This document shows, one piece after another, positions 12,893 to 20,050 of a stretch of 64,000 nt of DNA. This stretch comes from Acinetobacter lwoffii (GTDB lineage Bacteria; Pseudomonadota; Gammaproteobacteria; Pseudomonadales; Moraxellaceae). The first letter of the stretch is position 1. Each line of letters begins with the position of its first letter. Under the pieces are notes generated by a model. That model was not told the DNA's origin. It searched no databases and was given only the letters and a program-made list of their open reading frames with translations. The DNA lies in contig NZ_CP077369.1 of NCBI RefSeq assembly GCF_019048525.1, positions 124,001 to 188,000 on the forward strand, written 5' to 3'. The translations under genes were made by a program, and so were the position numbers.

Positions 12893-13282
12893 TCAGCTAC
12901 TACGCAGGCTGCTCTCTTCGTCATCCAGCTCATCATCATAGACATAGGCCATGCAGCCCCAGCCATCATATTCGCCCTGAAATTGTGCAGCGATTTTGCT
13001 GAACCATTGTTCCAGATCCACGATATCTTCGTAGGCAGGCTCCATATACACATAAATCGTGATAATCCATTCCAGGGTATCGCTTTCTTCGTCCTGAAAC
13101 AGGCTGATTTTTTGCTCTTCTTTTAATAGATGCAAGGCACAGCGATCTGCCTGCGCTTCATCCGCAAAGGCAATCGAAAATTCAATTTCGTGCGCTTCTT
13201 GCAAGTCGTCGCCATCCTGATGCATTTGCCACAGTACATTGCCATTTTCATCGTCAGGGAATTGATTGTAATCACGTGACAT
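12893..13282 (-). CDS. RraB-like ribonuclease E inhibitor family protein
   Basis: A 129-residue acidic protein. It opens with a Pro-Asp-Asp-Glu segment, has the two-strand core IEFSIAFADEAQADRCALHLL, and ends with the RraB hallmark EYDGWGCMAYVYDD followed by an acidic tail. RraB proteins bind RNase E and change the set of mRNAs it degrades. Family membership is inferred from the YDGWG motif, size and charge; regulation of RNase E is not shown here. It is a single-gene unit with its own terminator. Confidence 0.78.
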   Translation of the reverse strand: MSRDYNQFPDDENGNVLWQMHQDGDDLQEAHEIEFSIAFADEAQADRCALHLLKEEQKISLFQDEESDTLEWIITIYVYMEPAYEDIVDLEQWFSKIAAQFQGEYDGWGCMAYVYDDELDDEESSLRSS

Positions 13283-13456: not shown

Positions 13457-13480
13457 AAATCCTGAAAAATATCAGGATTT
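13457..13480 (-). terminator. Terminator after the DUF4041 gene
   Basis: Stem AAATCCTGA / TCAGGATTT with a short AT loop, 65 nt downstream of the DUF4041 stop, followed on the minus strand by TTTGG. It shows transcription ends before any nuclease domain could follow. Confidence 0.65.
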
Positions 13481-13543: not shown

Positions 13544-14476
13544 CTACGCGATGTGTGGATGCAGATGGTCTTGTTTCAGTTGCAAAAGCAGCGCAGCAAA
13601 CTTGAGTTCCTCTAGACGCAGATCAAGATAGGATTCCCGAATCATCGCCTGACTCAGTGCCTGCCCGGTATAATTCAGCAAGACATAATCATCCTTTAAG
13701 GCTTGCAGCATCTCGCCTAGATTTTCTGTGCTTAATTGAGAGAGATATAAATCTGCCTTACAGTTGAAAGCCAGACTAAGGATTTCAATAGTACTTCGAC
13801 GGCGATTGTCGTCGACATAATTACAGCTCGCCACCTGCTGTGTTTCTATGGCCTGTTGAATTCTGTCACGGACATTGCGTAAATGCCGAACCGCATCCGT
13901 TTCGCTATAACCCTCAATCAGCTGCTCTAAAACCTGTGTTGCGGGAAGCTGCAAGCCGAAGCGCTGGGCCTGTATTTTATGCTCTAAAGCACTCAATACC
14001 TCTTGCAAGCGATGCTGTTGTTTGGCCTGTTCATAATAACCGTGCAAACTTTGTCGGGCCTCCTGCTCAACCTCGGCCACGGCCTGCGCCTGAAACTGGG
14101 CAAGATAATCTTTTACTCTTGCGATATAGGCTTTGAGATCATCGATCATGATCGAAGCATCCAGCTTGGTCGCTTCAACAAAGTTTTCGGCCTGCAAAGT
14201 CCGGTTAATAATATATTGCTCGATATCCCAGATATCCTGATATTTTTTATATTTATTCAGCGCAATGTTTAAACTGCCATTCTGTACCCGCAGTTGGGTG
14301 ATTTCATAATTCAATTCATCAACTTGAGTTTCATAATCTGCCAATTTGCTGCGGGAATGATCCAGATTTTCCTGTAAAAACTAAATATTGCTGCGTAATG
14401 AAGCCTGTACCTTCAAGCTCCATAGCAATGCACATATTGAAATACTCGCGAGAACGAAGAGAGCCATACTGAGCAT
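13544..14476 (-). pseudogene. DUF4041 (SNIPE-associated) protein with in-frame TAG and no nuclease domain
   Basis: The frame opens at ATG 14476, with AGGA 7 nt upstream. It encodes a membrane segment (MALFVLASISICALLWSL), meets TAG at 14383-14381 (codon 32), then continues in the same frame for 278 more codons. The later part has the DUF4041 pattern: coiled coil (VDELNYEITQLRVQNGSL), ALEHKIQAQRFGL, a DRIQQAIETQQVASCNYVDD segment, IEILSLAFNCKADLYLSQL, and ESYLDLRLEELKFAALL. In known full-length members this domain precedes a GIY-YIG-type nuclease and the protein acts at the membrane against incoming phage DNA. Here the frame stops right after DUF4041 and a hairpin follows. It could be a decayed remnant, or a short form that lost the nuclease. 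The downstream part could start at TTG 14344. Confidence 0.72.
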
Positions 14477-15061
14477 CGTTCTTTCCTTTAACCCCGGGCA
14501 GCGCCCTAAACCATCAAATTAAAAATTTATTATAAAGTAATGATTGATTTTGCATCACTTCAGCCAGATAAGCAAAGCCATTGATCACCACTAAGTCATT
14601 CATTCATTTTATTTTTCTACAAAATTTTTATGTGAAAGTCATGTAGGACAGACTGCTTTCCGGCTCAAATCAAATCTATTCTGAAACAACTTACGATATT
14701 TTTTATATCAAAGGATATAATTTGAAAGTTTAAAAATAATGAAAGGAAAATTAAAAAACCATAAAAATAAAGGCATCAGGCCTATAGTGGGAGATAAAAG
14801 AATAAAAATTCTCTAGGCTCATCATCAAGAGATAAACCGAACATTAAAAATTTATGTGCGGTAGTGACAACCGATCAGGCAATGGATCAGTAGAAAATTT
14901 CATTTGAACATGCTTGTAAAGCTACTCATCTCCAAGCTACTATCGAAATAAATTCTCACACTTTTTATTCGGGTTGCCCAGTTTAAGGGCTTGAACCTCA
15001 TTATATTTATGAGCTTAAAAAGCATGTGTCCGGTTGAATCTAACTATTAAGCAGAATCAAA
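14477..15061. other. Intergenic region with no supported gene
   Basis: About 585 nt, AT-rich, between the DUF4041 gene and the pseudouridine synthase. It has one 25-codon basic micro-frame (14739-14816, MKGKLKNHKN...) without a convincing ribosome-binding site. No strong hairpin or RNA family was recognised. Confidence 0.4.
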
Positions 15062-15727
15062 TTAGAACGGTATGGCTGCCTTAATTTCGACCGGGACACC
15101 ACTCAAAGGCTGGGTAAAAGCCAGATAACTGGCATGCAAGGCCATACGATTTAAAGGACTGCGCTGGGGTTCAGGATGATAAATTTTGTCGCCAGTAATG
15201 GGATGACCAATATGCAGCATATGGACGCGAAGCTGGTGGGAACGGCCGGTAATGGGGGTCAGTAACACCCGACTAATGTCTTGCTGAGGTAGATATTCTA
15301 ATGCCTGATACAGGGTTTTGGCAGCCTTGCCCAGTTCAAAATGCACCATCTGACGCGGACGGTTTTCCCAGTCGGTAATCAAAGGCACTTCGACGCTGCC
15401 CTCACCTTCGAGTTTGCCTTGTACCAGCGCGACATAATTTTTAAGTACCGTGCGTGCCTGAAACATTTTACTCACCGCCACTTCTGCATCGCGGTGTTTG
15501 GCAAACATCAAAATACCTGAAGTGGCCATATCCAGACGATGGGTAATTTTGGCCTGCGGATATTTATCCAGCACACGTAAATAGGCACTGTCATGATGCT
15601 CAGGTAAACGCCCTGGAACTGACAATAATCCGGCCGGCTTTTCAATCACCACCAGATCATCGTCTTCATAAACAATATGCAGCGGTTCTTGCGGTGGACA
15701 ATAGACAAAGTCGTTATTGATGGGCAT
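15062..15727 (-). CDS. rluA: RluA-family pseudouridine synthase
   Basis: Converts uridine to pseudouridine in 23S rRNA and/or tRNA. The catalytic motif ITHRLDMATSGILMFAK carries the essential Asp near residue 66. The rest of the RluA fold is present: VYEDDDLVVIEKPAGLLSVP at the start and ITGRSHQLRVHMLHIGHPI at the end. The short single-domain form without an S4 domain matches the dual-specificity RluA (23S U746/tRNA U32) type. The start at ATG 15727 is preferred over TTG 15769, although its ribosome-binding site is weak. Confidence 0.88.
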   Translation of the reverse strand: MPINNDFVYCPPQEPLHIVYEDDDLVVIEKPAGLLSVPGRLPEHHDSAYLRVLDKYPQAKITHRLDMATSGILMFAKHRDAEVAVSKMFQARTVLKNYVALVQGKLEGEGSVEVPLITDWENRPRQMVHFELGKAAKTLYQALEYLPQQDISRVLLTPITGRSHQLRVHMLHIGHPITGDKIYHPEPQRSPLNRMALHASYLAFTQPLSGVPVEIKAAIPF

Positions 15728-15811
15728 TTTAAGGGTACAGCATCTGGAACAATGCGCGCAAAATAACAAGCGGCTTCTAGGCTGTCAATTACCGTGCTTG
15801 ACCAGCTCAGC

Positions 15812-18694: not shown

Positions 18695-19522
18695 TTATGC
18701 TGCCATTACTTTTAGTAAATGTTGATCATAAAATTCATCCGGTGTTGCCTTATTCAAACTTGAATGAGGACGTATCATGTTATAAAAATCCAAATATTCA
18801 GCAATTGATTGTTTCGCTTGTTTAACCGTATCGTAAGCCTTCAAATAGACTTCCTCATGCTTCACGCTGCGCCATAAACGCTCAATCATCACATTATCCA
18901 TCCATCGTCCTTTCCCATCCATACTGATACGGATATTTCGCAATTTTAACTCATTCAAAAATGCCTCGCTTGTGAATTGACTGCCTTGGTCTGTATTAAA
19001 CACCTCTGGACAACCATATTTCACAATTGCTTCTTGCAACGCATCTATGCAAAAGTCTGTTTCCATACTGATCGATACTCGATGAGCCAGTACTTTACGA
19101 CTATGCCAATCTATAATTGCACACAGATAGACAAAGCCTTTAGCCATAGGAATGTACGTGATATCTGTACACCAGACTTGATTAGAGTGATCGATGACCA
19201 TGTTTTTCAACAGATATGGGAAAATACGGTGTGCAAGATTAGGCTTACTGGTATTGGGTTTTGGATACAAGGCATGTATTCCCATCAAGCGCATTAAACG
19301 TCGGACTTTACGCCGACCTATTTGATGTCCTTGACGCTGTAGCATATCTCGTATCATTCGACTGCCCATAAATGGGTAGTCGAGATGAATTTCATCGATT
19401 AGACGCATCAAACTCAAATCAGTTGATGAAATCTCTTTGGGCTTGTAATACAACGTACTGCGATTGATTTGAATCAATTGCGATTGTTGTCGTACCGAAA
19501 GTTGATGGGTCTTATCGATCAT
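18695..19522 (-). CDS. IS3-family transposase OrfB (integrase catalytic domain)
   Basis: A 275-residue DDE transposase. The catalytic triad is visible in WCTDITYIP (Asp), VFNTDQGSQFTS (Asp) and MIERLWRSVKHEEVYL (Glu). An HTH_21-type helical region precedes it (YYKPKEISSTDLSLMRLIDE). OrfB begins with ATG overlapping the OrfA stop as ATGA. The -1 slip at A6 (GGC AAA AAA TGA) places OrfA in frame with this ATG and would make the OrfAB fusion. Confidence 0.94.
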   Translation of the reverse strand: MIDKTHQLSVRQQSQLIQINRSTLYYKPKEISSTDLSLMRLIDEIHLDYPFMGSRMIRDMLQRQGHQIGRRKVRRLMRLMGIHALYPKPNTSKPNLAHRIFPYLLKNMVIDHSNQVWCTDITYIPMAKGFVYLCAIIDWHSRKVLAHRVSISMETDFCIDALQEAIVKYGCPEVFNTDQGSQFTSEAFLNELKLRNIRISMDGKGRWMDNVMIERLWRSVKHEEVYLKAYDTVKQAKQSIAEYLDFYNMIRPHSSLNKATPDEFYDQHLLKVMAA

Positions 19523-19824
19523 TTTTTGCCGCTCAGCTGCCCTATTTTTCTGAGCGCACCTTCTAAAAAATCAATTTGCAATGCCTGATGTCCTATCTTG
19601 GCATGTAGAGCTTTGAGGTCAATCTCTGGTTCTTGTTGTGCTGTTGGTCGTGAAAAAATATTGACTGATTGCTCAAGCAGTTGATTTTTCCAATCGATGA
19701 TTTGGTTTTGATGTAAATCGAATTGAGTAGAAAGTTCAGCGAGTGTGTGGTCGCCTTTAATTGCTGCGAGAGCAACTTTAACTTTAAACTCTGCTGAATG
19801 ATTACGACGTTTTCTTCGTGTCAT
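19519..19824 (-). CDS. IS3-family transposase OrfA (helix-turn-helix)
   Basis: A 101-residue DNA-binding subunit. MTRRKRRNHSAEFKVKVALA and LAELSTQFDLHQNQIIDWKN are the HTH_Tnp_1 pattern, followed by a leucine-zipper-like stretch (LKALHAKIGHQALQIDFLEGAL) used for oligomerisation. It ends SGKK-stop at the frameshift signal. An upstream in-frame ATG at 19842 is possible, but MTRRKRR is the usual opening. Confidence 0.9.
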   Translation of the reverse strand: MTRRKRRNHSAEFKVKVALAAIKGDHTLAELSTQFDLHQNQIIDWKNQLLEQSVNIFSRPTAQQEPEIDLKALHAKIGHQALQIDFLEGALRKIGQLSGKK

Positions 19825-20050
19825 GGTTGACTCCAAAAACAAGCATTTCCCATGCTTATTGGGGAGTAGATTATCACTTATAGGCGTGGTCTAAAATCCT
19901 AGAACCACATCAAATCATTGAGGAAGCTCAATTGCTTAAGTTTAAAAAGAAAAGTACCTGTTTGTATTTTCTTGATAAAGACATTAATGCTCTAAATAAA
20001 AACCCCACTTCACAGTAGGGTCTTTTTTAAACAATATCAACAACTTTAAT

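Follow-up and report, generated by a model that had tools for sequence, protein, structure and literature searches.

What becomes of an anti-phage nuclease that has lost its nuclease? SNIPE (PD-lambda-1) is a membrane-bound DUF4041/GIY-YIG anti-phage nuclease (PMC13190303, PMC9519451), characterised in 2026 as a nuclease-dependent system. The window analysed here, a stretch of 64,000 nucleotides from Acinetobacter lwoffii contig NZ_CP077369.1, contains a related gene that ends before any nuclease domain and is interrupted by an amber codon close to its start. The first-pass annotation saw in it either a decayed defence gene or a nuclease-less form whose amber is suppressed or which is read as two pieces. 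Which of these is it, and what would the intact protein do?

The interrupted gene

The gene occupies 13544..14476 of the window and comprises 310 codons plus stop, as delimited by its sequence and by intact orthologues. It lies on the minus strand, as do all of the features described below; the strand had not been given before. A Shine-Dalgarno-like AGGAAAG (14481..14487) precedes the ATG at 14476-14474, and a hydrophobic N-terminal segment follows directly (codons 2-22, 14411..14473). This segment is a probable membrane helix by comparison with intact orthologues, in 40 of 40 of which the 17-residue hydropathy maximum is N-terminal and reaches at least 2.06. The in-frame TAG is codon 32 (14381..14383), and 278 sense codons lie beyond it, up to the stop at 13546-13544. 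The ribosome-binding site, the hydrophobic start, the position of the TAG and the length of the frame beyond it are thus all present in the sequence, as the first-pass annotation described them. The first in-frame start past the TAG is a TTG at 14344, which opens a frame of 266 amino acids (13544..14344); these 266 codons align end to end with two intact relatives, at 97% and 95% identity. Judged by its sequence, the reading frame past the TAG is far beyond chance.

An AlphaFold2 model of an intact relative (locus L002; mean pLDDT 85.7, pTM 0.50) shows a single helix formed by residues 2-169, with a small head; codons 26-169 of the interrupted gene (13970..14401) correspond to a part of this helix, and the match to PF13250 (DUF4041) covers codons 235-287 (13616..13774). 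When the short protein of this type was compared with the PDB, no structural match was found at E <=0.001. Its sole viral structural match at that threshold was a 372-aa siphovirus protein labelled as a helicase (BFVD A0A8S5M6J8; E 2e-4, TM 0.34).

A terminator had been proposed beyond the gene. There is indeed a 9-pair hairpin at 13480-13457 (feature 13457..13480), and the 61-base stretch that holds it beats shuffled sequences in folding (z -3.56), but a consensus terminator scan found none 3' of the gene, and the hairpin is best described as a possible weak terminator. No promoter-like site turned up on the strand of the interrupted gene in a simple scan. Elsewhere in the window, at 18695-19842, two minus-strand frames that by eye resemble an IS3-type transposase adjoin an aconitase-like gene.

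Relationship to SNIPE

The match of the window gene to PF13250 (E 4.4e-5, 23.7 bits) falls under the Pfam gathering cut-off of 27, and four short relatives score in the same region (L002, 23.8 bits; L024, 22.5; L036, 26.7; L051, 28.1), so that the group would consist of borderline, divergent members of the family. The assignment to DUF4041 holds nonetheless: although the Pfam match is sub-threshold, a profile of the short relatives matches one of five full-length homologues with a probability of 100 and E 3e-56 over 307 columns, which map to positions 4-332 of the 562-column long-form profile. By this profile alignment, the short protein corresponds to SNIPE from the membrane helix through to the end of DUF4041. 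The homology thus extends over nearly the entire short protein, which like SNIPE has a hydrophobic N-terminus, a long helical part and a DUF4041 head. Unlike SNIPE, it has neither the linker helix nor the nuclease, and in the window copy the TAG separates the hydrophobic N-terminus from the rest.

The absence of the nuclease, also noted in the first pass, was confirmed: no GIY-YIG family matches the window gene, whose frame stops before such a domain, and scanning four short relatives gave no nuclease domain either. PF13455 (the MUG113 type) was also sought across the genome of the window, with no hit. Could a nuclease act in trans? PF13455 is present in 27 of 175 genomes of the genus, with 7 among the 43 carriers of the short gene and 20 among the 132 others, and for this nuclease type the idea was rejected. 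In NCBIfam, none of four short forms reached the cut-off of any family. PADLOC gave no match for L002; for L024 its matches were of the coiled-coil type, and those for L036 included a weak one to PD-Lambda-1 (8e-8). Two short and two long forms match PHROG 1847. A complementary half of SNIPE was also encountered: a 414-aa E. coli protein (L154:922-2163) has a MUG113/T5orf172 nuclease and no DUF4041 match, with hydrophobic N-terminal stretches by eye, and is annotated beside a 3'-5' exonuclease.

Distribution and origin of the short form

An intact relative was used as the query against 175 genomes of the genus Acinetobacter, one per species. Matches were found in 47, of which 43 carry the short gene and the other four have long forms only (three genomes) or a weak match in an 807-codon frame. 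The 43 carriers comprise 40 with intact short copies, the window's genome, one with another TAG (G096) and one in which the copy is split in two (G032). The intact copies encode 310-344 aa and all stop before any nuclease. The idea of a decayed nuclease gene does not survive this comparison. Since intact orthologues have about the same short length and no nuclease, the loss of the nuclease is old in the clade, and the amber is a separate and apparently recent event. The first pass had also allowed for an ordinary short member of the family, with a sense codon at position 32 and nuclease-less homologues of similar length; as to the homologues, that description fits.

No short forms were seen outside Acinetobacter in the order, phylum, plasmid and phage samples. 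The 390 genomes of the order gave the gene itself and three long forms; the 398 genomes of the phylum gave the gene itself, ten forms in frames of 481-604 codons and one frame of 244 codons (L126), which by eye lies among transposase frames and where the long-form profile matches a stretch further on. In a scan that required conserved peptide patterns, all 29 loci were from Acinetobacter. Four plasmid records match, and the same four match a full-length form over 87-90%. Six phage records match; the one opened (L139) encodes 558 aa, with a nuclease recognised by eye. This gene and four others of 558 codons (L151, L152, L153 and L156) lie between repressor CI and integrase genes, in one Peduoviridae phage and in E. 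coli prophages.

A tree was built from 57 rows (40 short and 17 long, the truncated row L126 having been dropped) and rooted at its midpoint. All 40 short forms fall on one side of a single branch with a support of 98/100. Nearest to them are four full-length Acinetobacter SNIPE homologues (G155, G073, G072 and G097), which have 522-581 aa and the MUG113 nuclease that the short forms do not have, and the other 13 long forms lie outside. On this midpoint-rooted tree the short clade is nested among nuclease-bearing forms, and it is likely that the short form descends from the long one, the direction being that implied by the root.

The chromosomal locus

The short gene has a single chromosomal locus. 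Upstream of it in the window is an rluA-like pseudouridine synthase gene (15062..15769; PF00849) and downstream an rraB-like gene (12893..13282; PF06877). In all 43 carriers the short gene adjoins the rluA-like gene, and in 42 of them the rraB-like gene was found as well (the exception, L039, was viewed with 1.5-kb flanks only). The long genes opened, on the other hand, lie elsewhere, several of them in prophages, and for the four long Acinetobacter forms neither flanking gene is within the 7-8 kb fetched.

What is found at this site in genomes that lack the gene? Thirty of the 132 gene-less genomes were sampled, and 26 gave an orthologous rluA-like locus. In 23 of these the rraB-like gene comes next, after 83-285 bp in 16 and after 537-917 bp in seven, where a different frame lies between (L099, L108-L111, L114 and L115); in three it was unseen. 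The rluA-rraB site may be a small insertion hotspot. No relics of the gene were found at the 26 empty loci at E <0.001; a likeness over 27 residues at L115 (E 0.005), on the far side of the rluA-like gene, was taken as chance. Presence was mapped on a tree built from both flanking proteins (42 rows with the gene and 26 without, 68 in all). The carriers were clustered, and at least five changes of presence are needed (bootstrap range 4-6), two of them forced by well-supported branches. An early gain followed by later losses would fit this pattern.

The amber codon

Codon 32 is a sense codon in the ten relatives compared, and among the genomes compared the TAG is private to that of the window. 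Its copy has four private synonymous codons and three other private codons, the stop included; eight close relatives have 0-3 of each kind. By these counts the TAG looks recent. Nine genomes, including that of the window, have copies 95-100% identical to the query, and two of these nine copies are interrupted, at different codons: in the close relative G096 (locus L018), an assembly of one contig, the orthologue has its TAG at codon 145. As the codons differ, the two stops are independent. The G096 amber is a case of repeated loss of the gene within the group of close relatives. The split copy of G032 is not counted as a sure loss, since its rluA-like gene is split as well.

The stop in the window probably abolishes the function of this copy. 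Two other explanations would leave the strain with a working gene. The frame beyond the TAG has a dN/dS of about 0.09-0.20 against its relatives, as would be expected if the TAG were read through or if the gene functioned in two pieces, but a recent TAG explains this equally well, and both ideas appear very improbable. Suppression, raised in the first pass, sits poorly with the sense codon in all ten relatives compared, and no tRNA with a CTA anticodon was seen in a pattern-based, non-exhaustive search of the genome. (At five of the nine sites that it returned, ARAGORN gave tRNA-Ala, tRNA-Glu, tmRNA or nothing; the other four share the letters of the tRNA-Glu. There are no tRNA genes in the window.) Nor are two working pieces likely, since the TTG at 14344 is not preceded by any visible ribosome-binding site and such a split would cut the anchor off from the rest. 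That the TAG is an assembly or sequencing error and the gene of this strain intact is an improbable explanation too, if less so: only one codon differs, in one assembly, but the contig is 3.2 Mb long and the assembly is listed as 100% complete, and the different TAG of G096 indicates that interruptions do seem to occur.

Selection on the short gene

Copies of the short gene are under purifying selection. Among the copies of the eight close relatives and two outgroups, dN/dS is 0.09-0.29, and for the window copy against these ten it is 0.10-0.21 (0.09-0.20 for codons 33-310). Within the short clade, the best kept parts are DUF4041 (mean identity 0.58) and the rod (0.48), with 0.49 for the whole protein. 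The flanking genes have mean identities of 0.81 and 0.80, and the short gene therefore evolves faster than its neighbours. Distances between its copies run parallel to the distances for the rluA-like gene (Mantel r 0.68; 0 of 999 permutations). It is not a typical housekeeping gene, being faster than its neighbours and not found in 132 of 175 genomes.

Loss of basic residues from DUF4041

In SNIPE, a conserved positive surface of DUF4041 is reported to promote DNA binding (PMC13190303). Twelve DUF4041 columns carry a basic residue in 10 or more of the 11 SNIPE-like long forms (of 17). Of these columns the short clade has kept five and lost seven, whereas of the other conserved columns it has kept 43 and lost two (Fisher p 9e-5, in a post hoc test for which the pattern had been seen beforehand, the classes and thresholds were our choice, the six most distant long rows were omitted and the 40 short rows represent one clade). 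Unlike its nearer SNIPE relatives, the short clade has thus lost most of the conserved basic columns, and the Acinetobacter long forms are basic at all seven of those that it lost. Divergence alone does not account for this: in seven long forms of non-Acinetobacter origin (38-47% identical to the Acinetobacter SNIPEs), 6-7 of the seven columns are still basic, whereas the 40 short forms, with 40-57% identity, keep 0-5. One of the two basal short groups (eight rows) keeps 2-5, and the other 32 rows keep 0-2.

The pattern is not one of SNIPE as a whole. The six distant long rows (16-22% identity) are basic at 2-4 of the seven columns. The E. coli SNIPE, recognised in L149 and L155 by all nine residues named in the paper at their published positions, is basic at three of them (K154, K161 and K221), and its DUF4041 has basic residues at many further positions that are not basic in the short forms. 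Since these proteins lack several of them, the seven columns mark the branch of SNIPE nearest to Acinetobacter and not every SNIPE. Heads of the short forms carry a net charge between 0 and -8, and those of the long forms one between -3 and +7; in three distant long rows the head is negative, as in the short forms. We infer that the seven columns would belong to the DNA-holding surface of SNIPE, and that the short clade has probably lost DNA binding.

The C-terminal helix

In SNIPE, mutations including those at L253, W257 and E264 strengthened defence against phage Bas14; W257R strengthened binding of the phage tape-measure protein, and a crosslinker at N250 caught this protein in a W257R I308V mutant (PMC13190303). 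The matching helix of the short protein (281-296) is the most conserved of the segments compared in the short clade. Its pairwise identity is 0.75 in 20 short representatives, thinned from 40, and 0.54 in 12 long forms, a set not thinned likewise, whereas identity over the whole domain is equal (0.55) in the two sets. The C-terminal helix is thus more conserved in the short clade than in SNIPE-like long forms. In 39 of 40 short forms the W257 position holds K, and in the remaining one R (12 of 20 long forms have K there as well); the L253 position holds L in 36 of 40. Of the five SNIPE positions mapped, only these two sites are well conserved in the short clade; the N250 and E264 positions are mixed, and the E223 position is mostly L or I. 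A phage arms race would predict variation here, and the conservation of the helix suggests a constant partner for the short protein.

Function of the short protein

Why would a SNIPE-like protein without a nuclease be maintained? The explanation that we favour, by a little over even odds, is that the short protein is a domesticated descendant of SNIPE that no longer cuts, is tethered to the membrane and binds a protein, and that the copy in this strain was inactivated recently. A SNIPE-like ancestor would have lost the GIY-YIG nuclease together with the linker helix, and later most of the conserved, putatively DNA-holding basic residues, leaving a short protein that would act without cutting and largely without holding DNA. 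The intact product is predicted to be a rod, presumably anchored in the inner membrane, that bears the DUF4041 head. This tethered head would bind a protein partner via its C-terminal helix, which in SNIPE faces the tape-measure protein. Our first choice of partner is a host envelope protein, which seems likelier than a phage protein given the unusual conservation of the helix. In the window's strain, a conserved gene would then have lost its function recently. The wider proposition, that one Acinetobacter lineage domesticated a phage-defence nuclease as a SNIPE without its blade and much of its DNA grip, whose tethered head stays at a single locus surrounded by housekeeping genes for the sake of a new and constant protein partner, we regard as a coin-toss.

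Superinfection-exclusion proteins block DNA injection without cutting, and it is possible, if distinctly less probable than domestication, that the intact short protein is still anti-phage, binding the tape-measure protein or a host entry protein at the inner membrane and stopping injection in this way. It shares its ancestry with SNIPE and has retained the hydrophobic N-terminus, and K or R stands at the W257 position in every short form (though K is also common in long ones); its patchy presence, with 3 of 43 copies interrupted (one of them doubtful), would suit a dispensable trait. On the other hand, the nuclease of SNIPE is essential and its tape-measure edge is variable (PMC13190303), whereas the matching helix here is the best conserved of the segments compared. 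The genes identified at the locus include no defence-like neighbours, and the distances of the short gene follow those of the rluA-like gene (r 0.68). Regulation or poisoning of full-length SNIPE through mixed coiled coils is far less plausible still: in G097 an intact short copy does coexist with a full SNIPE located elsewhere, but it is the sole such genome, and for the remaining 39 of the 40 intact short copies that search turned up no full-length form alongside.

Among the matches listed for DUF4041, SNIPE, and GIY-YIG with Acinetobacter, no report of a nuclease-less SNIPE clade was found in the literature. Short genes of this kind would be misassigned by any annotation that takes DUF4041 to mean phage defence. 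The short clade is a natural separation-of-function set, in which one can see what selection keeps once cutting is gone, and it makes testable whether DUF4041 alone can stop the entry of DNA or instead serves the host.
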